Virus record (IMG/VR): IMGVR_UViG_3300007775_000016 | Coordinates: 1-40,738 of that record | Length of the DNA: 40,738 nucleotides | Strand: one strand, 5' to 3' | From: a virus | In this document: in pieces, positions 11,975 to 34,975 of the stretch | Layout: the number at the start of each line of letters is the position of its first letter | How positions within the stretch are numbered: the first letter of the stretch is position 1 | The notes under the pieces: model-generated | Database searches by the model: none | The model's input: only the letters and a program-made list of their open reading frames with translations | What the model was told of the DNA's origin: nothing | Program-made: the position numbers and the translations under genes

Positions 11975-11983
11975 GACTTACTC

Positions 11984-14341: not shown

Positions 14342-14353
14342 TATGTGGTGACG

Positions 14354-16270: not shown

Positions 16271-16291
16271 ATTTTCTCCTGATAATATTAC

Positions 16292-16319
16292 TTGCGTTGT
16301 GTACCTTATGTGGTACACT
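16292..16319 (+). promoter_or_regulatory. Promoter and operator of the HigBA-like module
   Basis: A -35 box TTGCGT (16292-16297) and a -10 box TACACT (16314-16319), 16 nt apart, lie directly before the toxin ATG. Between and over them is a perfect inverted repeat GTGTACC-ttatgt-GGTACAC (16299-16318), a good candidate operator for the antitoxin. The expected transcript start (about 16326) coincides with the ATG. Confidence 0.6.
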
Positions 16320-16325
16320 CTCCCC

Positions 16326-16676: not shown

Positions 16677-16722
16677 AAGACCGATAGGTCTGTGGCTTGA
16701 GAGGCCCAACAGAGGAGACCAC

Positions 16723-18723: not shown

Positions 18724-18724
18724 C

Positions 18725-18973: not shown

Positions 18974-19860
18974 TTGAGTGCCTTCTCCAAACGGTCAGCC
19001 AGTGACATAACATCGCTGGAATGAACCCTTGCCATTTTAACCATCTTCTCTGCCATCGACCTCTCAATTGTCTTGACGTTTTCCGCAACCCAGCTAGCGG
19101 CCGTCCAGTTTCTGTATTGAGGATCACCACCTCCAAAATGCAAACACTCACGCATCAGCCTGTCTGGGTTTGACATCCACTCTGGAGGCGACACCCCAGC
19201 CTCTAACATTGCAGAAGAGTAAGCAGCCAAAGCCGATCTTATAGCCATCAATTCATCACTTATTCGCTTCTCTGCGATGGCTTTAGATTTATCTTCTATC
19301 CTGCGATGTATTTCGTCTTCAAACGTCACAGCAATCAGCTCTCCGAGTTCATCACGTGTCATTTTTCTATCGGCATATCGCCAAATTAGATCGGTGTAGA
19401 CATCGCGCTTTGACTGCCGTGCTATTGCTGCAATTTCAGTCATTGTGAAATCACGAGAATCTCTCCACTGCGCTCGTTTTAAGGCTCGGAGCTTTCCGGT
19501 TTTGGTTGGCACCAGTAGCCCACATCCCTCTGGAATCTCATCAGTTTTCGCAATGCCAGGAGAGCAAACGAACCAAAACTCATTACTGACTTCCATCCCC
19601 CACATTCGCTTATGAGGTTGGTTCAGTTCACGCAGAAAGTCAGAGCGTGATACCTTGATCTCAAATGCATATCTTGCATGCCTTTCGCTTGGGTAAAGAT
19701 TCAACACAAAAGCATCAAGTGATCTGGTCTGATTGGGAAACCCTGTTCCGTTGCGAAGCTCAAAAAAGACCGCGAACTTATTCGTTTTTCCGCTATCAGC
19801 ACCGTACCGCTCTGCGATCAACACCTGCAGTTGGTGTGTAGAAAACTCAGGATTCGTCAT
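18970..19860 (-). CDS. MmcB-like PD-(D/E)xK nuclease family protein
   Basis: A 296-residue protein starting MTNPEFSTHQLQVLIAERYG. The signature is LDAFVLNLYP...YAFEIKVSRSDFLREL, with D49, E67 and K69 as a PD-(D/E)xK-type metal site, then SNEFWFVCSPGIAK and IPEGCGLLVP. This resembles MmcB-type DNA repair nucleases. The C-terminal half is helical. The gene overlaps the terminase small subunit-like gene by 14 nt. It may process phage or host DNA before packaging; the substrate is unknown. Confidence 0.65.
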   Translation of the reverse strand: MTNPEFSTHQLQVLIAERYGADSGKTNKFAVFFELRNGTGFPNQTRSLDAFVLNLYPSERHARYAFEIKVSRSDFLRELNQPHKRMWGMEVSNEFWFVCSPGIAKTDEIPEGCGLLVPTKTGKLRALKRAQWRDSRDFTMTEIAAIARQSKRDVYTDLIWRYADRKMTRDELGELIAVTFEDEIHRRIEDKSKAIAEKRISDELMAIRSALAAYSSAMLEAGVSPPEWMSNPDRLMRECLHFGGGDPQYRNWTAASWVAENVKTIERSMAEKMVKMARVHSSDVMSLADRLEKALK

Positions 19861-20563
19861 TTTGCACCACCTCGGCATCGGTGATCTCGGACTCATCGAA
19901 GGCGGGGACTTGCATCTCCTTCGGAATGAGACGGGAGAGCTGACGGGTCAGTTCGGCACCGGTCTGTAGTTCATCATCCTTTTGCACCACCTTCGCCTGA
20001 GATTGTGGCGTAGCGAGAAACTCCTGCAGATTGATGCCGAGCTTCTCCATGATTTTGATCATGGTGTGGATCTGCGGGTTCTCGCGCTCTTTGATGCCGA
20101 CGCGTTTACCTTCGGCGTTGAGAATGTCTTCACTGATCCATGTGCCGCGTGCCTGCACATCAGCAAACATCTGCTGAATGATGGAGATGTTCATGCCCAT
20201 GAGGGTGGCGGCCAAACCCTGAAGCGGGACCATGTCGCCATTCTGGGCAGCAATGATCGCTTCGGTGGATTCTTCAACGGTATTCCAATCACCTACATCG
20301 AGGCACTTGCCACCGGGGCCGGTCTTTTCTGCCAGCACGAAAACACATGACTCAAACTTCGGGCACGTGGACTTGCACGGCTTGCCGACCATCGATGAGC
20401 GGACGGAGGTGGCGGTGTGCCCATGTTTCCATGCGTTCATGGCGCTCTTCTGTTTGCCCTTCTGGGTGACGGGGCCGGTCTTGTTTTTGTTGGCCTCTTT
20501 CGCGGCACTCTTTCGCTGTGCGAGTTCGGCCTCGGAGAGTGGCGATCCTTTTTTGCGGGGCAT
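19847..20563 (-). CDS. Putative terminase small subunit
   Basis: A 238-residue protein with a basic N-terminus (MPRKKGSPLSEAELAQRKSA, then TQKGKQKSAMNAWKHGHTA), a Cys cluster (CKSTCPKFESC ... GGKC), and a helical C-terminus with an acidic end. DNA-binding basic N-termini and this place in the operon suit a small terminase that recognises packaging DNA. The four-Cys cluster could bind zinc. The function is inferred from order; the nuclease and methyltransferase lie between it and terL. Confidence 0.5.
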   Translation of the reverse strand: MPRKKGSPLSEAELAQRKSAAKEANKNKTGPVTQKGKQKSAMNAWKHGHTATSVRSSMVGKPCKSTCPKFESCVFVLAEKTGPGGKCLDVGDWNTVEESTEAIIAAQNGDMVPLQGLAATLMGMNISIIQQMFADVQARGTWISEDILNAEGKRVGIKERENPQIHTMIKIMEKLGINLQEFLATPQSQAKVVQKDDELQTGAELTRQLSRLIPKEMQVPAFDESEITDAEVVQNDES

Positions 20564-20883
20564 CAACACACCTCCCGAGCGACTTTCTGCGAGGCAACGA
20601 TCTGGCGGATGCGGCTTGGATTGAGATCGTACTCCATGGCAAGCTGACTGGTGTTGGTGCCGGTGTGACGATTGCATATCTCTTTGTCGCGGGCGTCGCG
20701 GGCTAGTTTGCGAAAGAAGTTGTTGGCAGATGGAACGTACATCTCGCAGCCACGGGTGCCACCCAGTGTGTTGAGGATATCACTCAGCACCTCAACACCG
20801 TATCGGCGGCCCAGTTGTGCCAGCTCGCTATCTTCCGATGCGGTAGCCAGCAGGGCGGTCATCTCCTCAAGGGTAAAGCTCAT
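20563..20883 (-). CDS. Mor-type transcription activator
   Basis: A 106-residue protein of the Mu Mor/C family. The signature is GGTRGCEMYVPSANNFFRKL followed by RDARDKEICNRHTGTNTSQ, then the HTH LAMEYDLNPSRIRQIVASQK at 81-100. Mor switches on middle transcription in Mu. Here it is encoded directly before the packaging and head operon, so it probably activates late genes. The ATG overlaps the stop of the upstream recombinase (ATGA). It is unusual to find it in a phage with a Cro/repressor switch. Confidence 0.85.
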   Translation of the reverse strand: MSFTLEEMTALLATASEDSELAQLGRRYGVEVLSDILNTLGGTRGCEMYVPSANNFFRKLARDARDKEICNRHTGTNTSQLAMEYDLNPSRIRQIVASQKVAREVC

Positions 20884-21821
20884 GATGTGACCCCCAGCTG
20901 CTTCCAGCGGGATGATGGAATGCGGGCTTTTTGGAGATGTCTCTCCGAGATGGCGATGTAACCCCATGTTGTCTCCTCTTTGGCGTGGCCCATTAAGATG
21001 CGAATCTCGCCGACAGGGATATCGGCGTCGTACAGATCGGTGGCGTAGGTGCTGCGCAGCTTGTGTAGAAAAACATTCTGATCGGACAGACCTACACGGC
21101 GGGCAACGCGTTTGATTACGGAGTGAAGCCCACCATTGCCGAGACCGTGTCCGGATTGTCTGTTCTGATTTCCATGCAGGGCGACGAACAGGCTGGTTGA
21201 AGCTGGGTCTGCATATTTCTGCCGGATGATTAGCCAGGTCTTGAGCGCAGGGACAATCGGCCCCTCAAATGGAACAACGCGGTGCTTCGAGCCCTTGCCG
21301 ATCACATGGATGCGGCCGGTGCGGGCGCCAAGGGCTACACGGTCCAGAGTGAGGTTCGCCATTTCGTTTCGACGAAGGCCGGTGGCATAGAACAACAGCA
21401 CAATGCAGCGATCGCGGAATTCGGTGTCGGTCGGATGTTCGATATCCGAGAAGAGTGCGATCAATTCTGATGGGCTGAACTTCTGTGCGGATTTTCTGCT
21501 GAACTTAGGAGTGGGAACACCGTCGCATGGGTTGGCCTTGAGGTGACCTTTATCCACCATCCAGTTGCAGACCGAGCGCAGCGACGAAAGCCGACTGGCG
21601 CGGGTAGCATTGGAGTGGTTGCCACAGTTGATCGCCAGATGTTTCATCCACTCTTCAACTGTGTCGCGCGTCAATGGCAGCGAATGACTGTACACCCAAC
21701 CGAAAAACAAACCGGCAATGCGGCAATATTTCTCTGCCGCCGTAGTGCTGCAGCCTTTGGTGATCACATGATACTCGGAGAATGCTTTCGCAAGATGGGG
21801 TGTCCAGATACCATCCATCAT
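20880..21821 (-). CDS. Second tyrosine recombinase (XerC/D-like)
   Basis: A 313-residue site-specific recombinase. Catalytic residues are all visible: R150 in ATGLRRNEM, K176 in VIGKGSKHR, H253 and R256 in HKLRSTYAT, H279 in MGHAKEET, and nucleophile Y288 in WGYIAIS. The N-terminal SAM-like core-binding domain is present. I take the ATG at 21821, which overlaps an upstream stop by ATGA; TTG at 21836 is also possible. It is distinct from the integrase beside attP. It could act in resolving phage multimers, or on an unknown second site. Confidence 0.88.
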   Translation of the reverse strand: MMDGIWTPHLAKAFSEYHVITKGCSTTAAEKYCRIAGLFFGWVYSHSLPLTRDTVEEWMKHLAINCGNHSNATRASRLSSLRSVCNWMVDKGHLKANPCDGVPTPKFSRKSAQKFSPSELIALFSDIEHPTDTEFRDRCIVLLFYATGLRRNEMANLTLDRVALGARTGRIHVIGKGSKHRVVPFEGPIVPALKTWLIIRQKYADPASTSLFVALHGNQNRQSGHGLGNGGLHSVIKRVARRVGLSDQNVFLHKLRSTYATDLYDADIPVGEIRILMGHAKEETTWGYIAISERHLQKARIPSSRWKQLGVTS

Positions 21822-22189
21822 ACGGCGAAGCCCCAAAACCGAAACGTGATATCAGCCCGAAAATTTAGCGCCACATAGTGTAGGGGGTGGGGGTCTTGCT
21901 CCTGAGCTTTTGATGGGGGGGTACCCCCTGCAAACACGGTGGAACCACCACGCACCAATAAACCACAGTAAAAACAGCCACTTGCAAGGCTATTTATGCA
22001 ATCGTTCCGGTGGTTCCGATTTCCTTTTTTCGAAACTTGTTGTCCCAGAACCGAAAGGGCGCGACATGGTGTCATCGTACCTTGTTGCGGCAGTAGGTCG
22101 AACCGTAGTTTTTTGCTTATGGTTTGAGCGTAACTACAGAACATCATTACCATTTCGGCTAATTGGACAAAGAGAAAAGGAAGCATCAT
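21818..22189 (-). CDS. Doubtful ORF coupled at both ends, in the dnaC-recombinase gap
   Basis: A 123-codon frame. Its ATG overlaps the helicase-loader stop by ATGA and its stop overlaps the recombinase ATG by ATGA, exactly like the real genes of this operon. The protein itself is odd: many Cys and Met, no clear domain, ending ALNFRADITFRFWGFAV. That C-terminal style recalls Ash/Icd-like phage proteins, but I cannot verify it. If it is not translated, the gap of about 350 nt holds only the palindrome listed below. Confidence 0.35.
   Translation of the reverse strand: MMLPFLFVQLAEMVMMFCSYAQTISKKLRFDLLPQQGTMTPCRALSVLGQQVSKKGNRNHRNDCINSLASGCFYCGLLVRGGSTVFAGGTPPSKAQEQDPHPLHYVALNFRADITFRFWGFAV
21917..21928. 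repeat. Perfect GC palindrome GGGGGTACCCCC
   Basis: A 12-bp perfect palindrome in a run of G and C. It lies 18 nt from a second near-palindrome (GGTGGAACCACC at about 21939). A further related GGTGGTTCC lies at about 22010. The role is unknown: candidates are a regulatory hairpin, a recombinase site or a packaging site. Confidence 0.5.
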
Positions 22190-25502: not shown

Positions 25503-26543
25503 TCATTTTACCACCTTCAATATCGGCTTGTTTTTGGCTACCAGTTCGCTGAACTGGGCCAGGTGTTCGGTGCAGAAATGGGCGTAGCGCATCACCATCT
25601 CCATCGATCGCCAACCGCCCAGCACCTTCAGCTGTTCCAGCGGGCAGCCGCTCATCACCATCCACGTGGCCCACGTGTGGCGCAGATCGTGCCAGTGGAA
25701 ATCCTCGATGCCGGCGCGGACCAGCGCCTTGCGCCATGCTGAGTTGTTGAAGCGGGAGAGAGGCTTGCCCCGGAACGTGAACACGTAGACCGGATGGGTG
25801 CCTTTCCGTCGCTCCAAGATCGCCAGCGCATCGCTGTTCAGTGGTGTGCCCAGTGGCCGGCCGTTTTTGGTCTTGTAGAGATACATGGCATTGGTCTGGA
25901 AGTTGATCTGTGACCACTTCAGGTTGCGGACGTTGGCATCCCTCAGTCCGGTGTTGAGCGTGAACTCCATCGCATCGGCCAGGTGCGGTGCATTTTTTGC
26001 CAGCTCCGCCTGCAGCGTCGCCGCCTCCTCTTCCGAGAGATAGCGCACACGGCTGTCGGCCTCCATGCGCATGCGGATCTTCGGTACTGAGTCGATCCAG
26101 TTCCATTCGTCCTTGGCCATGCGCATGATGGAGCGGATCAGGGCCGCATGCCTGTTCACCGTAACGTTCGAGGCCTCTCTCTCTTTCTTCTTGAGAATCT
26201 GCTCGATGGCTTCCCGATCGATCACATCCAGATAGACATCCTTCAGGTGTGGCCACAGCCAGCGCAACATGCCGCGATCGTTTTCGATGGTTTTCTTGTG
26301 AGACTTCTCCTCCAGCCATTTCAGGACTGCTTCGTTCCATGTCCGTCGGGGCTTGTCGCCGAGCTTTGCTTGTCGCCAGAGGTCGGCACGCCGTTGGTCG
26401 TGATACTCCTGAGCGAGCCTCTTCGCATCTTTGTCGGTTGATTTAATCCCAGTGCTCTCTCGCAATCGCTCGCAGCCCGGGATGGTGATGTCGATGTAGG
26501 CAGTTTTCGAGCCGCCTTTGTTTTTTGTCCAGTAGATTGACAT
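25503..26543 (-). CDS. int: Phage integrase, tyrosine recombinase
   Basis: A 346-residue integrase. Catalytic residues are R201 (TGLRDANV), K226 (YLYKTKNGRP), H285 and R288 (HWHDLRHTWATW), W311 (LGGWRS) and nucleophile Y320 (MRYAHF). A core-binding domain lies at about 65-155. The N-terminal ~60 residues form a small arm-binding domain. The gene ends 95 bp from a tRNA-like attP core. It follows an AlpA/excisionase-like gene, the usual xis-int pairing. Confidence 0.95.
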   Translation of the reverse strand: MSIYWTKNKGGSKTAYIDITIPGCERLRESTGIKSTDKDAKRLAQEYHDQRRADLWRQAKLGDKPRRTWNEAVLKWLEEKSHKKTIENDRGMLRWLWPHLKDVYLDVIDREAIEQILKKKEREASNVTVNRHAALIRSIMRMAKDEWNWIDSVPKIRMRMEADSRVRYLSEEEAATLQAELAKNAPHLADAMEFTLNTGLRDANVRNLKWSQINFQTNAMYLYKTKNGRPLGTPLNSDALAILERRKGTHPVYVFTFRGKPLSRFNNSAWRKALVRAGIEDFHWHDLRHTWATWMVMSGCPLEQLKVLGGWRSMEMVMRYAHFCTEHLAQFSELVAKNKPILKVVK

Positions 26544-26749
26544 GGTACCACCTCATCATTTGTGCATGGCTCTTTCGATTCAAGCCACTCATTCAGTTTT
26601 GACAGAAAGAATTTCCACGTTCCGATATTGCTGCCAGGTATCTCTCCGGCCTTCGCCTTACGGCGGAGGGTCTCTTCACTCATACCGAGATGCGCCGCCG
26701 CCTCACTCAGGCTGACCGGCCTCTCGAACACTTGCTCTGCTGTTTGCAT
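26321..26749 (-). CDS. AlpA/excisionase-like HTH protein
   Basis: The N-terminal ~65 residues (MQTAEQVFERPVSLSEAAAHL..., then MSEETLRRKAKAGEIPGS and WKFFLSKLNEWL) form a MerR-type winged helix of the HTH_17/excisionase family. The ATG overlaps the carrier protein stop (TAATG). The frame does not stop at the integrase start but runs about 220 nt into it; the tail is basic, Ser/Thr-rich and domain-free. It may be a true long tail or a lost stop. It is expected to direct excision and possibly to regulate int. Confidence 0.75.
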   Translation of the reverse strand: MQTAEQVFERPVSLSEAAAHLGMSEETLRRKAKAGEIPGSNIGTWKFFLSKLNEWLESKEPCTNDEVVPCQSTGQKTKAARKLPTSTSPSRAASDCERALGLNQPTKMRRGSLRSITTNGVPTSGDKQSSATSPDGHGTKQS

Positions 26750-27024
26750 TATTGAACCTCCTGCCATGGATCGTTGGTCATGTGCTCCATGACGTAGCCG
26801 ATGATGTGATCGACAGTGGACATGCTCTCCATGGCACTGTCGGCGATGGAGATGCCGAACTTCTCCTCCAGATCAAGCTCGAGCATGACAATATCGAGCG
26901 AATCGAAGAAGAGGTCCTCGACCAGGTGGTGATCCTTCCTGATGTCTTCCGCACGCTCGCCGTAGATGCACAAGATGGCGACCGCCTCCTTCACCCGCTG
27001 TTCGATCGTGATTAGTTCAGGCAT
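26749..27024 (-). CDS. Acyl carrier protein (free-standing)
   Basis: A 91-residue carrier protein. The core DHHLVEDLFFDSLDIVMLEL has Ser42 in DSL, where the 4'-phosphopantetheine arm attaches, followed by DLEEKFGISIADSAMESMST and VDHIIGYVMEHM. This is the full four-helix ACP pattern. The start at 27024 overlaps the previous stop by 8 nt (ATGCCTGA). There is no ketosynthase, ligase or phosphopantetheinyl transferase gene in the window, so it would need host enzymes. ACPs are not normal phage early genes. Confidence 0.88.
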   Translation of the reverse strand: MPELITIEQRVKEAVAILCIYGERAEDIRKDHHLVEDLFFDSLDIVMLELDLEEKFGISIADSAMESMSTVDHIIGYVMEHMTNDPWQEVQ

Positions 27025-27619
27025 TGTCTTCTGCCTCCTTCCACTCGGGATAGGCGACAGCGCATGCATGCAGTATTTGACTCTGATGGCACAACACCTT
27101 GTCCCCTTCTCCTAGGTCCTCACTAATAGCCTTGGCGCTCTTTCTGATCCGCGAAATCTGCTGGTGTACGTTTTCAACATACTTACGCACCGGCTCGGCA
27201 CCGTGCCAGTTGCCGGGCTCGCCGGTTTTACCGCTGATCAGCTGATAGATTTCTGCGATGGTGGCATTGGCGGTTCTGGCTTCCTGCGCATGGATACCCG
27301 CTTCCTGCTGCAGTCGACTGTTCAGATCGCGGGCGGCATCAAGATCGAGAGCCAGGCGGCTGATCAAGGAATAGGCGCGCATGATGTGCGCGTCGAAGGC
27401 TTTGGCATTGTTGTTGAGTCCGGAGATCACCGCATCGAGCTCGCAATCATTCGCACAGTCGAACTCGCCATGCACCAGCGCCCCGCCACAGCACGGGCAT
27501 GTCTGATGACCGAGCAACACCAATACATGAGAGGTGAGCGCATCCTGCTGGTGGTCGCATTCTCCTGAGCAACCATCGATGCTTGAGCAGCCGTTGCCGC
27601 AAATCGTTTGATCAACCAT
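27017..27619 (-). CDS. Cys-rich and coiled-coil protein, unknown function
   Basis: A 200-residue protein. The first ~60 residues hold nine or more Cys (ICGNGCSSIDGCSGECDHQQ, then TCPCCGGALVHGEFDC), suggesting one or two zinc sites. Residues ~75-150 are a heptad-like helix (SRLALDLDAARDLNSRLQQE). The start overlaps the previous gene by 8 nt (ATGGTTGA) and it is coupled to the carrier protein downstream. I do not recognise the family. The Zn-head/coiled-coil layout suggests an adaptor. Confidence 0.7.
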   Translation of the reverse strand: MVDQTICGNGCSSIDGCSGECDHQQDALTSHVLVLLGHQTCPCCGGALVHGEFDCANDCELDAVISGLNNNAKAFDAHIMRAYSLISRLALDLDAARDLNSRLQQEAGIHAQEARTANATIAEIYQLISGKTGEPGNWHGAEPVRKYVENVHQQISRIRKSAKAISEDLGEGDKVLCHQSQILHACAVAYPEWKEAEDNA

Positions 27620-27977
27620 TTGGATAATCCTTCTTATCTACCCTGACCGGCTCGCCATGTTCCTCACAGCTCCATACTGGATACTTCTCAACAAACACCT
27701 TAACGAACTTATCGAAGGCCTCCTTGATTTCCGGCGGCGGCGAAGTTTCTCCCTCTGGATTGTATTCCTCGTCAATACACTCCATCATATAATCAAAGCA
27801 GTGGCTAAAGGAGTTATGGGTTTCCTTCAGCTCCAGACGAACATAACCCTGAACCATCACGTGATCGGGCGCTTCATCCGGGAATATATCCTCAAGAAAC
27901 TCTTCCACAGCCTCCTCAACCGTAGTTGCGTTCAGATGCTCTTTATCACCTACTGCATAAAAATCTGGTTCAGGCAT
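27612..27977 (-). CDS. Acidic conserved phage protein, unknown function
   Basis: A 121-residue acidic protein beginning MPEPDFYAVGDKEHLNATTV, with VEEAVEEFLEDIFPDEAPD and ending around VFVEKYPVWSCEEHGEPV. The combination of an E/D-rich N-terminal helix and a KYPVWSCE-type end recalls small hypothetical proteins of other tailed phages. No function is known. It starts at an 8-nt ATGCCTGA overlap and shares its MPEP start with the zinc-ribbon mini-proteins nearby. Confidence 0.7.
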   Translation of the reverse strand: MPEPDFYAVGDKEHLNATTVEEAVEEFLEDIFPDEAPDHVMVQGYVRLELKETHNSFSHCFDYMMECIDEEYNPEGETSPPPEIKEAFDKFVKVFVEKYPVWSCEEHGEPVRVDKKDYPNG

Positions 27978-28143
27978 GGCATGCCTCCTTGATTCCAGCG
28001 GCCTCGAAATCGAGGGCTGTCATTTTTCTCTCATGGCCACAGCGCCCTTTGCATCTGCGCGTCACCGATTCGTCCGTATGGACCACATAGGTCACGGGGC
28101 CTGCGCAGTACGGGCACGTGGTTGGGTAGGTTGGTTCAGGCAT
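27970..28143 (-). CDS. Zinc-ribbon mini-protein, copy 2
   Basis: A 57-residue protein: MPEPTYPTTCPYCAGPVTYV, then HTDESVTRRCKGRCGHERKM and TALDFEAAGIKEACHA. CPYC and CKGRC give a four-Cys zinc ribbon. It is nearly identical to the protein at 29286-29462 (differences mainly at residues 5, 9, 16, 18 and the C-terminus). It follows the carrier-Gp37/68 fusion with an 8-nt overlap. It may bind nucleic acid or act as a small adaptor. Confidence 0.85.
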   Translation of the reverse strand: MPEPTYPTTCPYCAGPVTYVVHTDESVTRRCKGRCGHERKMTALDFEAAGIKEACHA

Positions 28144-29293
28144 TGGGCCACTCTTTATGCTCAACGCCATCGAGCAGGCATCCGGCGGCTTTTTTGCCGA
28201 CTCTATACATGCTTTGAGTGCCTTCGATGCAACTACACCCAAGAATCCACTCATGAGGGTTTTCGTGAAACTCTCCGCAGAGAATGTCTTCATCATCTGA
28301 CTCATCAGGAGACCATTCACCCCACTGTTTGAAGAAAAACGGCACGCCAGAGGCCTTGCACTGGTCGCGCAGGCTTCGCGCCCAATCCGGATGCATCGGC
28401 CTTGCCTTCGGGCCTGATTCGCCTCCAACGACAACCCAATTAAGGCGTTGATCGCCTGTAACCCCTCGTAGATATGACCGACAGTGATATTTACCATCAT
28501 AGGCACTTGGTTCACTTGATGATTCTCCGCCGGACACATCGTTTTGTAGCGTTATATGTCCAAGCAGCGGCTCTGCACTGATCCACCGCACGGATGCCGG
28601 TGTTTGAAGTAGCAGCGGAATCCGCTCATCGGCTGTTGCCTGATCTTCGACCGATACGCCAAGCCAGACGTTTGGAACAACCGGAAGTTGAGATAGTAGG
28701 CTGTGCATTCTTTTAGGTCGTTTTGTCAGCACTTGAAACGTGTGTTGGGAAGCGTTGTTCATAATCGAAAAAACCAATATGATAAACTCATCCGGCACAT
28801 CCTCATGGAACAGGTCGGACATGGAGTTGACGAACACCATGCGTGGACGCTTCCACCTTAAAGGCTGCTCCAATCGCTCTGGATGGCACTGTACGTCCGT
28901 GAAACCTCTACCGAAGGCCACATGCTTCGGGTTGGCCGACAGACGCGGCCAGATACGCTCGGCATAGCAGTGCTTGCAGCCCTGCGAAACCTTTGTGCAG
29001 CCAGTGACCGGATTCCATGTCTCATCTGTCCATTCGATCTTTGATTTGCTCATGTTCTCCATGATGTAGCCGATGACGTGGTCGACGGTCTCCATCTTAC
29101 GGATATCGCTATCGGCGATGCGCAGAGAGAAACGCTCTTCCAGATCCAGCTCCAGCATGGTGAAGTCGAGCGAATCAAAACCGAGATCATCAACCAGGTG
29201 ATGATCCTTCCTGACATCCTCCGCGCGACCACCATGGATACACTCGGCAACCGACTCCTTCACCCGCTGTTCGATCGTCAATACATCAGCCAT
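28136..29293 (-). CDS. Acyl carrier domain fused to Gp37/Gp68 (DUF5131) protein
   Basis: A 385-residue protein. Residues 1-80 are an acyl carrier domain: HHLVDDLGFDSLDFTMLELD with Ser41 in DSL, then LEERFSLRIADSDIRKMETV and VDHVIGYIMEN. Residue 81 is the Met that would start a normal Gp37/Gp68 protein (MSKSKIEWTDETWNPVTGC). This second part carries the three-Cys motif C-x6-C-x2-C (CTKVSQGCKHC), then MVFVNSMSDLFHEDV, PNVWLGVSVEDQATADER and GGESGPKARPMHPDWAR. There is no stop or shift between the domains. GGAG lies only 3 nt before the internal ATG, so separate internal initiation is possible. Confidence 0.88.
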   Translation of the reverse strand: MADVLTIEQRVKESVAECIHGGRAEDVRKDHHLVDDLGFDSLDFTMLELDLEERFSLRIADSDIRKMETVDHVIGYIMENMSKSKIEWTDETWNPVTGCTKVSQGCKHCYAERIWPRLSANPKHVAFGRGFTDVQCHPERLEQPLRWKRPRMVFVNSMSDLFHEDVPDEFIILVFSIMNNASQHTFQVLTKRPKRMHSLLSQLPVVPNVWLGVSVEDQATADERIPLLLQTPASVRWISAEPLLGHITLQNDVSGGESSSEPSAYDGKYHCRSYLRGVTGDQRLNWVVVGGESGPKARPMHPDWARSLRDQCKASGVPFFFKQWGEWSPDESDDEDILCGEFHENPHEWILGCSCIEGTQSMYRVGKKAAGCLLDGVEHKEWPNA

Positions 29294-29462
29294 GGGCGGC
29301 CTCCCCTTTGATTCCAGCAGCCTCGAAATCGAGGGCTGTCATTTTTCTCTGATGGCCGCACCGGCCTTCGCACCGGCGGGTCACCGATTCGTCGGAATGG
29401 ACCACGTATCGCACGCTGCCCGCGCAGTATGGGCACTTCGTTGGATAGGATGGTTCAGGCAT
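29286..29462 (-). CDS. Zinc-ribbon mini-protein, copy 1
   Basis: A 58-residue protein: MPEPSYPTKCPYCAGSVRYV, then HSDESVTRRCEGRCGHQRKM and TALDFEAAGIKGEAAHG. It is a near copy of the protein at 27970-28143. The start overlaps the HTH gene stop by 8 nt (ATGCCTGA) and the stop overlaps the carrier fusion start by 8 nt (ATGGCTGA). CPYC plus CEGRC suggests a zinc ribbon. Confidence 0.85.
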   Translation of the reverse strand: MPEPSYPTKCPYCAGSVRYVVHSDESVTRRCEGRCGHQRKMTALDFEAAGIKGEAAHG

Positions 29463-29787
29463 TGAGCTGCCCTCTCACGAACACCTTAAACACTTCGCTG
29501 TAGCGCTTGCTCGGATGTGTCCATTCGTATTTTTTAATTGTCTTCCCTGAGTAGCCAATAAGCGTACCAAGCTGTTTTCTCGTTAGCCCGAGCCTCTCTC
29601 TGACAACCATCAGACACCTGCCCCATCCGTTGTCATAAAACATGGCGCCGCACGTATCACATGACTCACCAACCCAATCAACGAACAGCGTCTCGCGACC
29701 ACACACCGGACACGTCGACGGCGGGAACTCTTCACAGCCCGCACGCAACGATTCATTCGTGGTGATATGGAGGCCGCTGACGCTCAT
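29455..29787 (-). CDS. Zinc-ribbon plus HTH regulator (MqsA-like layout)
   Basis: A 110-residue protein. C26, C29, C43 and C46 (TCPVCGRETLF ... ESCDTCGAMF) form an N-terminal zinc ribbon. Residues ~62-95 (RERLGLTRKQLGTLIGYSG, then KTIKKYEWTHPSKRY) form a helix-turn-helix. This is the domain order of MqsA-type regulators, but no MqsR-type toxin is beside it. It may regulate the early operon. It is coupled to the DUF1643 gene by an ATGA overlap. Confidence 0.78.
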   Translation of the reverse strand: MSVSGLHITTNESLRAGCEEFPPSTCPVCGRETLFVDWVGESCDTCGAMFYDNGWGRCLMVVRERLGLTRKQLGTLIGYSGKTIKKYEWTHPSKRYSEVFKVFVRGQLNA

Positions 29788-30305
29788 TCCACCCGCCCTA
29801 CGGGCCAGAGCACGGGAACTCGATCATAAGGCTGATAGAGGGGGTGTGCCGGTTCGCCTGACTTAGAGATGTTAAGTGCATGCAAAGTGATGTTGTGGAG
29901 CCCCAGAATCGCCCGTACACGCTCGGAGCGATTCAGGTGAATACCATGATTGCCCCATGCGCAGACGATCATGGCGGCGCCCCTGCTCTCTTCGATGATC
30001 ACGGCATCATTATCAGGGCCGACAGGGTCATCCTGTGCCTTCATGTCGGCCGGCTGAGTAGCCCTGAAGGCAAACAGGTTGCAGACCACCAGCCCGCCAT
30101 ATCCCATCGATCGAGCGCGCCGCTCGCAGCGTTCCACGGTCGGATCGTTTTGCAGCTCATCGGCCGTGGATGGGTTGAGCATCAGAAACATGCAGATGCC
30201 TTTCGACTTATCCCACACCCGCCACAGCTTGTAGCGGTAGCGCTCACAGTCCGAGAATGTGGCGCCGGTAGTTCCGGTCAGGGTGTTATGCTCGCGGGTG
30301 ATCAC
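29784..30305 (-). CDS. DUF1643 family protein
   Basis: A 173-residue protein with the DUF1643 pattern: CERYRYKLWRVWDKSKG, FLMLNPSTADELQNDPTVER, RARSMGYGGLVVCNLFAFRA, then VCAWGNHG. The biochemical role is unknown; it often travels with phage and island cargo. I choose GTG at 30305, which overlaps the Gp37/68 stop by GTGA with GGAG upstream. An in-frame GTG at 30323 is the alternative. Confidence 0.85.
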   Translation of the reverse strand: MITREHNTLTGTTGATFSDCERYRYKLWRVWDKSKGICMFLMLNPSTADELQNDPTVERCERRARSMGYGGLVVCNLFAFRATQPADMKAQDDPVGPDNDAVIIEESRGAAMIVCAWGNHGIHLNRSERVRAILGLHNITLHALNISKSGEPAHPLYQPYDRVPVLWPVGRVE

Positions 30306-31339
30306 GCCTGAATCTCCGGCCACGCTTTATGCTCAACACCATCGAGCAGGCTGTAGCCGAATGACTTCTTGCCTGCCCTCACCATATTGTTGTTGACGTT
30401 TACGATATCTGCGCCGTTTTCGTAGAACTTTCCACCAGACCACGCGCCGATGCGACCATGGTGTCCACTTGATACAGGGAACCACTCACCCCACTGCTTG
30501 AAGAAAAACGGCACACCAGCGGCTTCGCACTGATCGCGCAGTAACCGCGCCCAATCGGGATGCATCGGCCTAGCCCTCGGGCCGGATTCGCCGCCGACGA
30601 CGACCCAATCGAGACCCAGTTCATCAGATGTGCCTGTTCCGTAACAATGCGGACATCCATTCGCACCGGTGTCGTATTCGTAATATTCACCTTCAGCACA
30701 GCGGGAGCATTCTGAGTACGCCAACCCATCAAGTGTAAGATCAATTCCACCAAGCAGCGGCTCAGCACTGATCCAGCGCACAGCGGCGGGTGTCTGTAGC
30801 AACAACGGAATGCGCTCATCGGCTGTTGCCTGATCCTCGACGGATACGCCAAGCCAAACATTTGGCAGCGGAAAAGAAACAGGCCAAACTCTTTCTCTAT
30901 CAAAGTGCGTAATGAAATCCAGCATCCTATCTGGCCGTTTAGTTAAAACCTGAAAGGTGTGGCTTGGAGAGTCAGCCATCACATCGAAAACCCGCTCAAT
31001 GAAATCGAACGACACATCCTCATGGAATAGATCGCTCATGGAGTTGACGAATACCATACGTGGACGCTTCCAGCGTAGCGGATGCTCAAGACGCTCTGGG
31101 TGGCACTGTACGTCTGTGAACTTGCGTTTGCACGTCCAATGTCCAGTAACATCTTTCGGTCTGATGTATTCATGGGGAATGCAATCAGCTTCAGGGGTTG
31201 GAACGCAAACCTCCTGCTTACCATAAAACCGAGGCCAGATGCGCTCGGCATAGCAGTGCTTGCATCCTTGGCTGACTTTGGTGCAGCCGGTGACCGGGTT
31301 CCAGACTTCGTCAGTCCATTCGATCTTTGATTTTGTCAT
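30302..31339 (-). CDS. Gp37/Gp68 family (DUF5131) protein, free-standing copy
   Basis: A 345-residue protein starting MTKSKIEWTDEVWNPVTGC. C19, C26 and C29 (CTKVSQGCKHC) make the three-Cys motif that resembles an iron-sulphur or radical-SAM-type site. Shared blocks with the fused copy include MVFVNSMSDLFHEDV, HTFQVLTKRP, PNVWLGVSVEDQATADER and GVPFFFKQWGEW. Unlike that copy it has a CxxC...CxxC insertion (CSRCAEGEYYEY ... CPHCYGTG), a possible zinc finger. It is preceded by the repeated 74-bp leader and a ribosome-binding site (GGAGGGG). Confidence 0.88.
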   Translation of the reverse strand: MTKSKIEWTDEVWNPVTGCTKVSQGCKHCYAERIWPRFYGKQEVCVPTPEADCIPHEYIRPKDVTGHWTCKRKFTDVQCHPERLEHPLRWKRPRMVFVNSMSDLFHEDVSFDFIERVFDVMADSPSHTFQVLTKRPDRMLDFITHFDRERVWPVSFPLPNVWLGVSVEDQATADERIPLLLQTPAAVRWISAEPLLGGIDLTLDGLAYSECSRCAEGEYYEYDTGANGCPHCYGTGTSDELGLDWVVVGGESGPRARPMHPDWARLLRDQCEAAGVPFFFKQWGEWFPVSSGHHGRIGAWSGGKFYENGADIVNVNNNMVRAGKKSFGYSLLDGVEHKAWPEIQA

Positions 31340-31410
31340 CTCGCCCCTCCATGGTCTCGACCCGTCCGGGCGGGGGACCGTGCAATTTCTCTGTCCTGAT
31401 AAATTGTCAT
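31337..31410 (-). repeat. 74-bp repeated leader, copy B (before Gp37/Gp68)
   Basis: The segment from the start codon of the Gp37/Gp68 gene upstream is a close copy of 33017-33090. Shared parts are CTCGACCC(A/G)TCCGGGCGGGGGACCGTGCAA, the ribosome-binding site GGAGG-n-GCGAG, and an AT-rich inverted repeat (CAATTT/AAATTG, 31383-31406). The GC part can form CCCG/CGGG hairpins. It may be a promoter-operator or an mRNA leader that controls translation. Confidence 0.75.
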
Positions 31411-31414
31411 CACC

Positions 31415-31771
31415 TCAATCCCACCGGATCAGGACGCCATGGAACGGGAAGCCATACTCTCCTTTGAAAAAGTCACGGAACGCTTCAACCGTTTTGAAGC
31501 CGTCATCCAGTGCCAGCTTTTGGATATGGCCAACACCGAGCGCCACACCGTCCAGCTTCATGCCTGCCTCTGTCATCCGCACTTCCTGCGTGTATTCGCA
31601 GACAGCATCGCGCAGCTTCCTGCATGATTTCGTGCGCATGCCGGTATAGAGCTGCAGCGCCTCTCCCGGTCGTGGCTTTCGCTTATCCTTGCGAACAGCG
31701 CGGATCGTCTGGCGCTTCCGCCCTGACTCCACATCATCAGCGAAACAGGCTTTGAAGTTGTAGGCGGTCAT
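31415..31771 (-). CDS. ASCH-like domain phage protein
   Basis: A 118-residue protein: MTAYNFKACFADDVESGRKR, QTIRAVRKDKRKPRPGEALQ, LYTGMRTKSCRKLRDAV, ending FFKGEYGFPFHGVLIRWD. The order K-x-T-I-R...PGexlqLYtGmRtk.c.kL...FpFhG.liRWd is that of small phage proteins with the PUA-like ASCH fold, thought to bind RNA or modified bases. It is coupled to the previous gene (ATGA). The leader repeat follows it. Confidence 0.72.
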   Translation of the reverse strand: MTAYNFKACFADDVESGRKRQTIRAVRKDKRKPRPGEALQLYTGMRTKSCRKLRDAVCEYTQEVRMTEAGMKLDGVALGVGHIQKLALDDGFKTVEAFRDFFKGEYGFPFHGVLIRWD

Positions 31772-32202
31772 TTCATCACCTCACCATTGCTATTGGCATT
31801 GCATTTGACGATATGCTCTGAGCTAAGGAGGTTGCCCCACCATCCGCGATAGTGTGCGCCGCCAATGTGTCCAGAGCCGTTAACAGCGATCTTGTCATCA
31901 AGGATGTCGGTTACTATTGCGTGGAATGGCTCATACCTCCGCCCATGGTTGTAGCGGATGATCCGGTCGCCTTTTTGAAGCTCGACATCATTACCATTTT
32001 CGTCTTTAACGATCTTTGGCCCATTTCCCCAGGCATATTGTGCAGCCTTGTCGCGGCGTACCTGAGCCTTATGGTCATCGATAGCGCGACCTAGTGATTC
32101 TCGCAGCTCTTTCGCTGCATTGATGGTGAACTTCTGGTCTCCAATATGAATCGGAAACTGAGTATCGCTATGCACAAAAACTGCTTGGGTTCCTATACTC
32201 AT
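31768..32202 (-). CDS. Hypothetical early protein
   Basis: A 144-residue protein, MSIGTQAVFVHSDTQFPIHI... It has a charged helix (AKELRESLGRAIDDHKAQVR) and a beta-rich C-terminal half (KGDRIIRYNHGRRYEPFHAI, GGAHYRGWWGNL). I do not recognise it. A ribosome-binding site (AGGGGTGG) precedes the ATG at 32202, and the previous gene ends 2 nt upstream. Confidence 0.65.
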   Translation of the reverse strand: MSIGTQAVFVHSDTQFPIHIGDQKFTINAAKELRESLGRAIDDHKAQVRRDKAAQYAWGNGPKIVKDENGNDVELQKGDRIIRYNHGRRYEPFHAIVTDILDDKIAVNGSGHIGGAHYRGWWGNLLSSEHIVKCNANSNGEVMK

Positions 32203-32203
32203 A

Positions 32204-32467
32204 TCACCACCCCTGAAACTCTGGCAGAGCATTGATCTCATTCCTTGTCATCCAGACCTTTTGAAACTCGTATTTTTCCCCGGCTTCAAGATCGCGCAGC
32301 GTGTCCAGAGCATCGCCAACCTCCATGACACACCACTGATCATCGAAACAAAGTTTCGCCATCTCCATCCGCTCGGTGTTCGTAGCGCAATTCACATGGT
32401 GTCCGTGTTTGTGGTCATCCATGTCGATCGCCGCCATCTCGGTGCAATTACATTCGACAGATATCAC
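32204..32467 (-). CDS. Hypothetical early protein with His/Cys N-terminus
   Basis: An 87-residue protein that I start at GTG 32467, because GGAGGTG lies 5 nt upstream and the GTG overlaps the previous stop (GTGA). It reads VISVECNCTEMAAIDMDDHK, HGHHVNCATNTERMEMAKLC and ends VWMTRNEINALPEFQGW. The NALPEFQGW-type end is common among small phage proteins. The C/H pattern in the first 35 residues suggests metal binding. Function unknown. Confidence 0.65.
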   Translation of the reverse strand: MISVECNCTEMAAIDMDDHKHGHHVNCATNTERMEMAKLCFDDQWCVMEVGDALDTLRDLEAGEKYEFQKVWMTRNEINALPEFQGW

Positions 32468-32706
32468 CTCACCACCTCCAGTAGCGGCAGTCGTTCGACG
32501 GTGACGGCGTGGCCATGCGCGGAGGCATCGGCCATCGCTTCCACTTCGATGTTCGGATCGACTGCCTTGTAGTCTTTGCATCGGCCGCGAAACGGGCACT
32601 CGCATGTCAGGCATGCCTGCAGCGGGATCCGGTGCTGATAGTTGTTGCCGAAGCGGCGAGGGCCGCCTTTGCCGCATGAGATCATGGTGTGACTACGCAT
32701 GGGCAT
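32464..32706 (-). CDS. Cys-rich early protein
   Basis: An 80-residue protein (in-frame ATGs at 32706, 32700 and 32685 are all possible starts). ACLTCECPFRGRCKDYK carries four Cys in a tight CxxCxCxxxxxC arrangement, and another Cys lies upstream (ISCGKGG). It probably binds a metal. The C-terminal half is acidic and helical. Function unknown. It overlaps both neighbours, as is usual in this operon. Confidence 0.6.
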   Translation of the reverse strand: MPMRSHTMISCGKGGPRRFGNNYQHRIPLQACLTCECPFRGRCKDYKAVDPNIEVEAMADASAHGHAVTVERLPLLEVVR

Positions 32707-33019
32707 AGATCGTCTGCTTGGCCCGCTCGAGGCGCTTGATCAGAAGCTGGATGCGCGACGATGCAACAACGCTGTGCACCTCTGCGCTCTCCGGATGTTC
32801 AAGAATGTTGAAGGCCTTCTGGATTTCGATCTCGGCGAACTCAAGATCGGCATGTATCTGCGCGCGCTTCCACATCCGCTCCCGCGCGATAAACAGATCA
32901 AGCTCGATTTCCAACCGATCGAACCTTGCCTCTATAGATGGGCTGCACTCCCACTTGGATATGTTGTCACGGACTGAGGTGCGGGAAAGGGCGGGGTTGG
33001 CTTGGGGCGCTGTGTTCAT
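32693..33019 (-). CDS. Hypothetical helical early protein
   Basis: A 108-residue, mostly helical protein: IEARFDRLEIELDLFIARER, DLEFAEIEIQKAFNILEHP, SRIQLLIKRLERAKQTIY. Two or three long charged helices suggest a coiled coil or helical bundle. I do not recognise the family. It is preceded by copy A of the 74-bp repeated leader, so it may be expressed or controlled like the Gp37/Gp68 gene. Confidence 0.65.
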   Translation of the reverse strand: MNTAPQANPALSRTSVRDNISKWECSPSIEARFDRLEIELDLFIARERMWKRAQIHADLEFAEIEIQKAFNILEHPESAEVHSVVASSRIQLLIKRLERAKQTIYAHA

Positions 33020-33090
33020 CTCGCACCTCCGTGTGCTCGACCCATCCGGGCGGGGGACCGTGCAAATTTACTATCCTGTAAATTTGTCAT
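33017..33090 (-). repeat. 74-bp repeated leader, copy A
   Basis: Exactly the same length as copy B (31337-31410) and about four fifths identical by eye. It contains the perfect inverted repeat CAAATTTA (33063-33070) / TAAATTTG (33079-33086) next to the conserved block CTCGACCC-n-TCCGGGCGGGGGACCGTGCAA and the ribosome-binding site. Base changes between the copies keep the GC stem (CCCG with CGGG or TGGG). Confidence 0.75.
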
Positions 33091-33242
33091 CCCTGAGCCC
33101 CGTCAACCATACGTCGAACTTCGGCACTGTCGTGCTCGCTGAGTGTCCGGGCATTGCACCAGGTGGCGACAAAGAGTCTGCCTAGCCAACCGATCAGCAG
33201 GAGCAGGAATAGCCCTGCGAGAATGTAGAGTGTTAGGAGCAT
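33087..33242 (-). CDS. Small single-pass membrane protein
   Basis: A 51-residue protein, MLLTLYILAGLFLLLLIGWL, then GRLFVATWCNARTLSEHDS and AEVRRMVDGAQG. The first 20 residues are one membrane helix and the rest is charged and cytoplasmic (positive-inside near GR). It starts 4 nt after the previous stop with TAGGAG nearby. Possible roles are superinfection exclusion or membrane anchoring; nothing is specific. Confidence 0.65.
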   Translation of the reverse strand: MLLTLYILAGLFLLLLIGWLGRLFVATWCNARTLSEHDSAEVRRMVDGAQG

Positions 33243-33245
33243 GGT

Positions 33246-33533
33246 TTAGCCCTCCTGTGCATCGCTGGCGATATCGCCGACTGTTGTTTGTGGTGTCATG
33301 AATCGGTTGTGTGCCCACATCGAGGCGGTGATGCCGAGCGGGCCTGCAATGAGATATGCAGTGCATGCCAGCAGACCGCCGTCCGGCAGCGCCTTGTAGA
33401 GCACTAGGTGCGTGCCGCCGATAAAGAAACTGGTGATCGCCGCCGCGCCGTACTGTCCGGTGTTGACGTTCCGGCTCTGAAAACCGAGCGCGAACACCGT
33501 TGCGAAGGTGGCGAGGAATATCCAGAGGGCCAT
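33246..33533 (-). CDS. Membrane protein, three predicted helices
   Basis: A 95-residue protein: MALWIFLATFATVFALGFQ, GAAAITSFFIGGTHLVLYKA and LLACTAYLIAGPLGITASMW are three hydrophobic segments, followed by a polar tail. I do not recognise the family. The start overlaps the previous stop (ATGA). Together with the next small membrane gene it forms a membrane pair in the early operon, where exclusion proteins are often found. Confidence 0.65.
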   Translation of the reverse strand: MALWIFLATFATVFALGFQSRNVNTGQYGAAAITSFFIGGTHLVLYKALPDGGLLACTAYLIAGPLGITASMWAHNRFMTPQTTVGDIASDAQEG

Positions 33534-34009
33534 CACCCTTCCCCCTCAACCACAGCGAGCATAACGCAGACTTCGGTGATCATTTCGCGCAGCTCAACGG
33601 CGATCCGTTGGCGCTCTTTTGAGGATAGCTCCTTCCCCTTCTCTGAATCATCTCGGGTGGACTCAAACACTTCGCGCATCACATCGCCGACCATTTCGGC
33701 GTCCGGCAGCTCTGCCGGCAGCGTGAACACCATGCGCCCGAGCTCATGCTCCAGCGTATCGAGCGAGGCCTTGTCCATACCATCCATCAGATTGCATATC
33801 CACGACTCAAGGAATGGTCGCTCCTGCTGATTCGGGTCGATCCGTTTATGGAAATCCTTCGGCTTCATGCCTGCAGACTCGGCTGCCAGCTCGAGGGTCA
33901 TCGGCTTGATCTTGCGACCGCACCCAGCGAAGCGGGCGCCACCTTTCACATGCACCACCGAATCGTGGTAGTGAGCCAGCACCCGATGCTTGGCGCGTTT
34001 GGTTTTCAT
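33533..34009 (-). CDS. Possible CII/CP76-like regulatory protein
   Basis: A 158-residue protein with a basic N-terminus (MKTKRAKHRVLAHYHDSVVH) and a segment LELAAESAGMKPKDFHKRID-PNQQERPF that resembles the CP76/CII-like HTH (LA-x2-xGM-x-P-x2-x-x-K-x-xP). The C-terminal half is acidic and helical. It starts 2 nt after the serine recombinase stop. It may regulate lysogeny. The family match is weak, and a different role is possible. Confidence 0.5.
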   Translation of the reverse strand: MKTKRAKHRVLAHYHDSVVHVKGGARFAGCGRKIKPMTLELAAESAGMKPKDFHKRIDPNQQERPFLESWICNLMDGMDKASLDTLEHELGRMVFTLPAELPDAEMVGDVMREVFESTRDDSEKGKELSSKERQRIAVELREMITEVCVMLAVVEGEG

Positions 34010-34010
34010 A

Positions 34011-34817
34011 TTACTGCACATGGAAATCCTCCGCTCCATTACCCGTTGTTGAGGATGTACATGCAGAAGCAGAATGCTCTGCATGGATTTGCAGCTCCTC
34101 TTCTTCCCACTGCTCAAAGAGCTCCGCATTGACGGGGTTATTGAGAATGGCGCTGACGGTCGACGGCGCCCATACCTTCTTGCCGCCACGGGTTTTGTGA
34201 ACGGTGCCGCCCAGCGCATCGGCGATGGCTGTCGGACCAAGACCCTTGCGACGCGCCTCCCAGATAAACCGCATGGCCAGCTGCTCGCCGACATTCGGCA
34301 GACGCTTGCCATCCTCATAGCGCCAGCCGTAGGGCGCTTCGGCCGAGTGCTGTTCGCCGCGCGATCGTTTCAGATCGATCGAATCCTTCACCCGCTCGCC
34401 GATGCGCATGCTCTCGAAGGTCGCCTGACCGGCTGCGATGGTGAAGATGTAGAGACCCATGGCTGTGGAGGTGTCGACGCTGCCGCCACCGATATCGATA
34501 ATGTGCAGGGCGCTGCCCATCTTGCGAATAAGCTCTTCGGTCTGCAGCGCTTCAACGGTGTTGCGGAAGATGCGATCCATCTTGGTGGTGACCAGTACAG
34601 CGCCTTCGGTTCTCTTCACCTTGTCCAACGCCGTCTGCAATCCCTCCCGATGCTCCATGCTGCGGCCGGTGACGCCCTCATCACTACACATCAGATGCAG
34701 ATCCAGCCCGTAGAGTTTGCAGTAGAGCGTGATCCGCTCCTGTTGCGCCTCAAGGCTGTCGCCGTCGACCTGCTTGTCGGTCGATACGCGGATGTATCCG
34801 ATGGCTGGGCGAGTCAT
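34011..34817 (-). CDS. Serine recombinase (resolvase/invertase type)
   Basis: A 268-residue protein. The resolvase catalytic domain is clear: AIGYIRVSTDKQVDGDSLEA with nucleophile Ser12, then SDEGVTGRSMEHREGLQTAL and VTTKMDRIFRNTVEA. A Recombinase domain (about 160-240) follows: APYGWRYEDGKRLPNV, then GLGPTAIADALGG. It lacks the zinc-ribbon/coiled-coil tail of large serine integrases. The ATG overlaps the previous stop (ATGA). The target is unknown; no inverted-repeat pair for a DNA switch was seen near the fibre genes. Confidence 0.9.
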   Translation of the reverse strand: MTRPAIGYIRVSTDKQVDGDSLEAQQERITLYCKLYGLDLHLMCSDEGVTGRSMEHREGLQTALDKVKRTEGAVLVTTKMDRIFRNTVEALQTEELIRKMGSALHIIDIGGGSVDTSTAMGLYIFTIAAGQATFESMRIGERVKDSIDLKRSRGEQHSAEAPYGWRYEDGKRLPNVGEQLAMRFIWEARRKGLGPTAIADALGGTVHKTRGGKKVWAPSTVSAILNNPVNAELFEQWEEEELQIHAEHSASACTSSTTGNGAEDFHVQ

Positions 34818-34975
34818 GTTCTCACCTCGCGAGCTGTCGCCTCTTCCAGAATCATTGGGCCAAGACATTCTGAACAGCATGGGCACCCATCTTCTTTGGC
34901 TTCCTCTAGCTGTTTGTCAGTCAGCACTTCGATATGATCACACACAACACACCTGCACTTGAGTTTAACGGTCAT
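34814..34975 (-). CDS. Zinc-finger mini-protein
   Basis: A 53-residue protein: MTVKLKCRCVVCDHIEVLTD, KQLEEAKEDGCPCCSECLG, PMILEEATAREVRT. C7, C9, C12 and the later CPCCSEC make a compact zinc ribbon. Its ATG and stop overlap the neighbours by 4 nt each. It is like the small Com-type or zinc-ribbon proteins of early phage operons; the function is unknown. Confidence 0.75.
   Translation of the reverse strand: MTVKLKCRCVVCDHIEVLTDKQLEEAKEDGCPCCSECLGPMILEEATAREVRT

Follow-up and report, generated by a model that had tools for sequence, protein, structure and literature searches.

A single-virus fusion of an acyl carrier protein with a DUF5131 protein of predicted radical SAM fold

Results

The fusion gene

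The window analysed here is the whole of one virus record of 40,738 bases (IMGVR_UViG_3300007775_000016). Its minus strand carries at 28136–29293, stop codon included, a gene for a protein of 385 residues that joins an acyl carrier protein (ACP) domain to a DUF5131 (Gp37/Gp68) domain. The frame runs uninterrupted from the ATG at 29293 to the stop at 28136 over 385 codons, and the plus strand opposite the gene has 12 stops in frame 1. A first-pass annotation had described one frame joining an ACP, with a DSL motif and Ser41, to a three-cysteine Gp37/Gp68 protein beginning at Met81. The frame and the Pfam matches confirm this, and we add that the gene lies on the minus strand. By profile, motif and fold, as far as these can be read from the letters, both halves belong to known families.

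The ACP half

Residues 1–80 (29054–29293, minus strand) are an ACP domain by profile, DSL motif and predicted fold. The PP-binding profile PF00550 matches residues 24–77 with 24.2 bits against a curated cut-off of 20.8. The NCBIfam models of ACP subfamilies match with up to 53.7 bits, all below their own cut-offs, and the PHROG match is the ACP family phrog_5934. The solved relatives are ACPs (60 listed of 110), the best being 7e42 with an E value of 1.1e-10. The motif is present as FDSLD, and its Ser41 (codon 29171–29173) aligns with the serine of the free ACP of the window and of E. coli AcpP, to which the domain is 42% identical. Ser41 would carry the phosphopantetheine.

Modelled alone by AlphaFold2 (residues 1–81, 3 alignment rows), the domain takes the ACP helix order with a mean predicted local distance difference test (pLDDT) score of 64. 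The best VIA-align match of this model is holo-AcpP 7pdi (Z 10.7, root-mean-square deviation 2.3 Å, 76 residues aligned), and all 50 PDB entries in the list are carrier proteins, or complexes or modules containing one. A Z of 10.7 is weak alone for a helical bundle, as a shared arrangement could reach it, and is consistent with an ACP when taken alongside the sequence matches.

The DUF5131 half

Residues 81–385 (28139–29053, minus strand) match DUF5131 (PF07505) over residues 83–383 with 341.6 bits against a cut-off of 28.9, covering profile positions 1–243 of 243. Cys99, Cys106 and Cys109 (codons 28997–28999, 28976–28978 and 28967–28969) form a CX6CX2C motif that is invariant in 78 aligned rows, which are 76 of 147 dereplicated relatives plus the two copies in the window. 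Of the columns conserved to at least 93% among the other 76 rows, the fused copy keeps 60/60, so its enzyme part is not in decay; the free copy differs at one of these columns and the 76 relatives at 1.04 on average.

The AlphaFold2 model of the fusion protein (78 aligned proteins) has a block pLDDT of at least 89 for residues 91–250, 281–330 and 361–385. The top PDB match of the predicted DUF5131 part by Foldseek is the spore photoproduct lyase 4fhg (E 3.8e-4). By VIA-align the same enzyme gives Z 13.8 with a root-mean-square deviation of 3.7 Å over 215 aligned residues at 10–13% identity; this alignment nominally begins in the ACP part (residues 8–10), to which we give no weight. RlmN (Z 11.1), viperin (10.9) and lipoyl synthase (10.3) follow, and lipoyl synthase–H-protein complexes are among the titles of the matches. 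Rows 1–31 of the list (Z 13.8 to 8.0) are radical S-adenosylmethionine (SAM) enzymes, all but a few of them so by title. From row 32 (Z 8.0) come other barrels, including Elp3 at rows 34 and 50, and Cfr.

In the predicted model the three cysteines sit between the strand 91–93 and the helix 110–120. Radical SAM enzymes bind their cluster after the first strand. As a new result of this analysis, the predicted fold of DUF5131 is that of the radical SAM enzymes, and by this model the three cysteines would hold a [4Fe-4S] cluster and the domain would bind SAM.

The nearest folds include enzymes acting on DNA (spore photoproduct lyase) and on RNA (RlmN), and in mycobacteriophage records some DUF5131 relatives bear the annotation RNA methyltransferase. 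Radical SAM mobile pair protein A (TIGR04471) matches residues 93–244 by sequence with an E value of 1e-15, its 57.8 bits being far under the cut-off of 355. Component B of the candidate defence systems PDC-M41 and PDC-M30 of PADLOC also matches the DUF5131 part (E 2.4e-88 and 1.7e-87, respectively). No other PDC component is among the matches listed for the eight window proteins scanned. TcmP (TIGR04474), the three-Cys-motif partner of DUF5131, has no match in this 40.7-kb record, which may be a fragment.

The junction

The junction lies directly after the last ACP helix and retains the DUF5131 methionine, leaving both domains whole. Met81 is the usual DUF5131 start, as the fused half begins MSKSKIEW and the free copy MTKSKIEW. 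Conservation between the fused and free ACPs extends in frame to the junction (GYIMENM and GYVMEHM). No homopolymer is present at it and the longest exact repeat across it is 10 nucleotides (nt), so that a sequencing slip and a repeat-driven misjoin are both unlikely. The error hiding a stop near 29053, which the first-pass annotation had named as one of the cases that would undo its proposal, is thus unlikely, the more so with the ACP frame conserved to that point.

A chance origin of the frame is excluded by the sequence, because two full domains share the frame, they are 69% and 68% identical to paralogues on the same contig, and nonsynonymous substitution (dN) is below synonymous substitution (dS). 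The joining looks genuine, with the ACP and the DUF5131 protein each present in full.

A second record of the same virus (IMGVR_UViG_3300026196_000025) is 100% identical to window positions 1–19916 and stops short of the fusion, so the fusion site rests on one contig. The part of that record that was fetched extends about 1 kb beyond window base 1, without a match to the remaining window.

The translation start

A strong ribosome-binding site, AGGGGAGGC, lies at 29299–29307 on the minus strand, 5 nt before the fusion start, with a pairing energy of −11.2 kcal/mol with the 16S tail. The site ahead of Met81 is a GGAGA at a distance of 2 nt with −6.4 kcal/mol, which is poorly spaced. For comparison, the site of the free DUF5131 gene is GGAGGG, spaced by 5 nt, with −9.8 kcal/mol. 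The halves have no stop between them, so a ribosome starting at the ACP must make the fusion. Because the start ahead of the ACP is strong and the Met81 site is poorly spaced, the fusion is probably the main product of the gene, and some initiation may occur internally at Met81. To the earlier question of whether the fused protein or one begun at 29053 is made, these predicted energies answer in favour of the start before the ACP.

Paralogues of the two halves

Both halves are, by sequence, diverged paralogues of genes nearby on the same strand. The free-standing ACP (26749–27024, minus strand; Pfam match) has 91 residues and is 69% identical to the fused ACP, and its open reading frame (ORF) has an in-frame upstream ATG at 27069. 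It is the second ACP that the first-pass annotation had placed 1.1 kb downstream, that is, further along the minus strand. The free-standing DUF5131 protein (30302–31339, minus strand; Pfam match) has 345 residues. In a tree of 72 rows, consisting of the two window copies and the best 70 of 147 dereplicated relatives, the fused and free copies are sisters with support of 98/94 and branch lengths of 0.55 and 0.59, respectively.

Two small genes flanking the fusion form a third pair. A cysteine-rich protein of 58 residues (CPYC...CEGRC; 29286–29462, minus strand) overlaps the fusion start by 8 nt and is without a match at E ≤ 0.01 in Pfam, NCBIfam or PHROG. Its paralogue of 57 residues (27970–28143, minus strand) overlaps the 3′ end of the fusion by 8 nt.

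Protein identity, dN and dS are 69%, 0.23 and 0.83 for the ACP pair, 68%, 0.26 and 1.68 for the DUF5131 pair, and 84%, 0.096 and 0.59 for the cysteine-rich pair. These pairwise counts indicate that the pairs are old and constrained, with unlike dS. Several of the genes nearby share a few bases with an adjacent one, so that an in-frame join through a small deletion would be easy.

Search for the pairing in other genomes

We looked for the pairing at 160 close DUF5131 loci, the best 80 of 233 IMG/VR relatives and the best 80 of 137 GTDB contig relatives. The matches to the fusion begin at residue 54 or later in the former, and at residue 41, 45, 47, 51 or later in the latter. Fourteen loci with early matches were inspected and have no ACP-like sequence in frame ahead of DUF5131. 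An ACP profile (E ≤ 1, unfiltered), run on the 25,515 frames of at least 40 residues in the 160 loci with flanks of up to 6 kb, hit none that is ACP-like, and recovered the two of the window. PF00550 has no match in 80 DUF5131 viral records, some of which are near-duplicates and many short fragments. A degenerate pattern for the junction has 0 matches in IMG/VR, in a search limited to exact matches that may have passed over records close to that of the window. In DNA searches with the region, the pieces cover at most 8–9% of the query among the matches listed and fall at DUF5131 genes.

Of 50,697 phage records, 160 match the fusion by tblastn at E ≤ 1e-5, and the matches in the 40 listed begin at residue 62 or later. 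Two class samples contain DUF5131 at E ≤ 1e-25 in 25/369 and 41/385 genomes, with the earliest listed match at residue 57, and no fusion is found among these 66 genomes.

From the ACP side, 5 of the same phage records match the fused ACP part at E ≤ 1e-3; among them, two Acinetobacter contigs and a Salmonella record resemble host acpP. With a more usual phage ACP as the query, 100 records match. The free ACP has 6 matches in 72,556 plasmid records. Neither the free ACP alone nor the cysteine-rich protein has a relative in IMG/VR. A search with the alignment of the two ACPs found one distant phage ACP; it is a free ACP on a viral contig (L163:6004–6237), in a series of small genes that follows one with a GxxxxGKT-type motif.

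Erythrobacter phage R6L, chosen since its paper reports both genes, carries an ACP and a DUF5131 gene 10 kb apart on opposite strands. Besides R6L, DUF5131 occurs in 0/14 ACP-carrying records, which are the one with the distant ACP and 13 picked from 65 listed matches of the 5 and 100 records matched above. In the same 15 records PF04055 has matches in 4 at E ≤ 1e-3, 1 of them over the cut-off, with no pattern. Among free ACPs, that of ICP1 is followed after about 2.7 kb by a Mom-like DNA modification gene, and that of phiXF1 lies between gyrB and gyrA.

A Rhodocyclales genome has a DUF5131 and an ACP gene 22 kb apart on one contig (JACPEH010000016.1); we rejected it as a pairing, the ACP being, to judge by the translations, the housekeeping acpP between fabG and fabF. 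Its DUF5131 is 62% identical to the fused half, and the fab operon nearby is a possible clue to how a phage could acquire an ACP.

With no other fusion or close pair in the viral, GTDB, phage-record and class-sample searches, we rejected the fusion as a general theme. The first-pass annotation had named the lack of any other genome linking ACP to DUF5131 among the results that would refute it, and on this count the searches go mostly against it: neither the flanks of the 160 loci, nor the 80 viral records, nor the 14 ACP records hold one, and R6L has both genes unlinked.

Neighbouring genes

Between the two DUF5131 genes lies a gene for a DUF1643 protein (29784–30323, minus strand; 157.6 bits). 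Next to it is a gene for a helix-turn-helix protein with cysteine pairs (29455–29787, minus strand), weakly like the MqsA-type antitoxins (TIGR03830, 30 bits with a cut-off of 61.8). DUF1643 is found in 3 of the 160 DUF5131 loci. The genes at 27017–27619 and 27612–27977, the cysteine-rich protein gene and the helix-turn-helix gene have no homologue there at E ≤ 1e-3.

Terminator-like sites number 13 in 26000–34000 against 5.2 in shuffles, and promoter-like sites 1 against 5.4. Two of the terminator-like sites are identical palindromes inside the two cysteine-rich genes (28002–28015 and 29321–29334). A 76-nt element occurs in two copies, 84% identical, at 31336–31411 and 33016–33091 on the minus strand. 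Each copy sits just before and at a start codon, in one case that of the free DUF5131 gene and in the other that of an ORF starting at 33019, as a start-associated repeat. The element has no Rfam match and no significant fold, and Rfam has no match anywhere in the window.

Elsewhere in the window, three genes, two of the tyrosine integrase family and one of the serine resolvase family, lie at 20880–21836, 25503–26543 and 34011–34886, and a gene for a Mor-family transcription activator, a Mu-like feature, at 20563–20967, all on the minus strand. A toxin-type gene of the Gp49-like (DUF891) family lies on the plus strand at 16239–16676, against the main strand. It is overlapped by a longer plus-strand frame (16390–17022) that may hold an antitoxin.

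Discussion

Comparison with known proteins

The fusion protein shares with the phage Gp37/Gp68 proteins (PF07505; phrog_2045) the full-length match over the cut-off, the three cysteines and the start. It differs from them by the additional N-terminal ACP of 80 residues, which is in none of the relatives examined. Its ACP is of the AcpP kind, as are the free phage ACPs of phrog_5934 such as ICP1 ORF97 and those of Serratia phage phiMAM1, Brevundimonas phage Bajun and Erythrobacter phage R6L (ORF32). Those are free proteins, however, and in R6L the DUF5131 gene is far from the ACP gene. The R6L paper counts the ACP as an auxiliary metabolic gene and calls the function of phage ACPs unclear (PMC5463345), and a survey of Rhodobacteraceae prophages lists acpP in 8 prophages (PMC8224337).

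Among the radical SAM enzymes, spore photoproduct lyase has the closest solved fold to the predicted DUF5131 part. It has no carrier domain and a different cysteine spacing, its motif being the canonical CX3CX2C. Because the motif here is CX6CX2C, we limit the likeness to folding alike. Lipoyl synthase, also a fold match, acts on a carrier-bound acyl chain. It differs in that the arm is lipoyl and not phosphopantetheine, and in that enzyme and carrier are separate proteins.

The nearest parallel in working is in nosiheptide biosynthesis. NosN is a radical SAM enzyme acting on a thioester substrate bound to the carrier protein NosJ, with a KD of 4.2 nM (PMC5585349). What is shared is a radical SAM enzyme on a carrier-protein thioester, a likeness of working and not of descent. 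NosN and NosJ differ in being separate proteins, NosN is a class C methylase, and the pair has a loader, NosI, and a release enzyme, NosK; no such enzymes were found among the window proteins scanned.

Proposed delivery of a carrier-bound group

The reading that we put first, tentatively and at somewhat less than an even chance, is that the fused ACP presents a thioester-bound group to the radical SAM domain tethered to it. One copy of the phage's duplicated ACP gene would have been joined to one copy of its duplicated DUF5131 gene, at the start codon of the latter, to give one two-domain protein. A phosphopantetheinyl transferase of the host would prime Ser41. The ACP would then hold a thioester-bound acyl or aminoacyl group and present it to the adjoining DUF5131 domain, a radical SAM enzyme like spore photoproduct lyase with its putative [4Fe-4S] cluster on Cys99, Cys106 and Cys109. 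The 5′-deoxyadenosyl radical would act on the carried group, or employ it in modifying a second substrate. Cargo, reaction and target are our conjecture. In favour of this reading count the single frame with both profiles above their cut-offs, the predicted radical SAM fold, the invariant cysteines and intact conserved columns, the like branch lengths of the two DUF5131 copies, the constraint on the ACP pair, the stronger start ahead of the ACP, and the parallels with NosN and lipoyl synthase. The first-pass annotation had suggested that the protein acts on or with a group on the phosphopantetheine arm. That part gains from the radical SAM fold of the model and from the precedent of NosN and NosJ. 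A general link between ACP and DUF5131 is so far not borne out by the searches. The suggested nucleic acid or nucleotide modification gains no direct support from these results, although the nearest folds leave room for it.

Several points speak against such delivery. First, the ACP–DUF5131 fusion is a singleton of one virus with no close linkage elsewhere, and all the DUF5131 relatives examined do without a fused ACP. Second, the window has no phosphopantetheinyl transferase of PF01648, other Pfam transferase families not having been sought. A Pfam scan of 30 window proteins, most genes outside 16–36 kb being unscanned, gave no enzyme for the loading or release of acyl groups either. Hence, the host would have to supply the transferase and the loading or releasing enzymes. 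Third, the ACP part of the fusion model is poor (block pLDDT 32–71), its alignment having contained no ACP rows as MAFFT misplaced the free ACPs, and the model does not give the relative position of the domains.

Fourth, the canonical CX3CX2C is absent and the fusion protein has no match to PF04055 at E ≤ 0.01. These two features suggest the fold and likely chemistry of the radical SAM superfamily outside its canonical Pfam family, and may be why the family remains a DUF. Fifth, a weak terminator-like hairpin of the consensus kind (9 pairs, 3 of them G-C) lies within the ACP part at 29207–29184 on the minus strand. Finally, the dN/dS values span the paralogues as wholes and do not isolate the time since the fusion or selection on the fused state.

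A possible fusion by accident

Nearly as likely as the delivery of a carried group is that the fusion is meaningless. A small deletion in a packed, overlapping array would have joined copies of an ACP and a DUF5131 gene, each half would work separately, the ACP like an ordinary phage ACP of the moron type and the DUF5131 part like its relatives, and the tether would mean nothing. Both genes are already duplicated within a few kb and both have free copies, and genes in the array overlap by a few bases. Elsewhere the ACP and DUF5131 are found together only in R6L and 10 kb apart, free ACPs turn up among unrelated phages in a variety of settings, no loading enzyme is among the window proteins scanned, and other DUF5131 proteins have no ACP. 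Against an accident, both halves are intact and the junction leaves both domains whole. Moreover, domain fusions are often retained between working partners.

Other explanations

A narrower form of the carrier reading is a reaction like that of Elp3, which uses acetyl-CoA. Acyl-ACP, loaded from the host, would replace acetyl-CoA, the acyl or aminoacyl group would be moved onto or rearranged into a nucleic acid or nucleotide by the radical SAM domain of DUF5131, and the free ACP and free DUF5131 would be a second, unfused pair. We consider this unlikely. If true, it would give a function to both DUF5131 and the phage ACPs.

Rather less is to be expected of a docking role, in which the ACP mimics the AcpP of the host or competes with it, so that the radical SAM domain is brought to a partner of the host ACP, or recruits the Fe-S assembly machinery that fills the cluster. 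The fused part is by prediction an Fe-S protein, ACPs bind proteins of Fe-S assembly and may do so in bacteria too, and the matches of the ACP model include, by their titles, the ACP in the human NFS1–ISD11 or Fe-S biosynthesis complexes 5usr, 8tvt and 8pk8. However, those complexes are mitochondrial and the other DUF5131 proteins have no ACP, so we hold this quite improbable.

Least probable of all is that a one-base error or local variant hides two genes whose products are made separately: with one base fewer among the last four (AACA) ahead of Met81, the ACP would stop at the TGA of ATGAGC in an ordinary ATGA overlap, small overlaps are common here and the other record of the virus offers no second copy of the junction, but the lack of a homopolymer, the 10-nt longest repeat, the ACP frame conserved to the junction and the poor ribosome site of Met81 all stand against it.

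Implications

DUF5131 is common in phages and mobile DNA, and we found no described function for it in the literature searched, which did not cover the slash spelling Gp37/Gp68. The predicted radical SAM fold by itself gives DUF5131 a concrete and testable chemistry. An accidental fusion would be a curiosity confined to one virus. If the fusion is a working partnership, it would point to a radical SAM domain that acts on a carrier-bound group.

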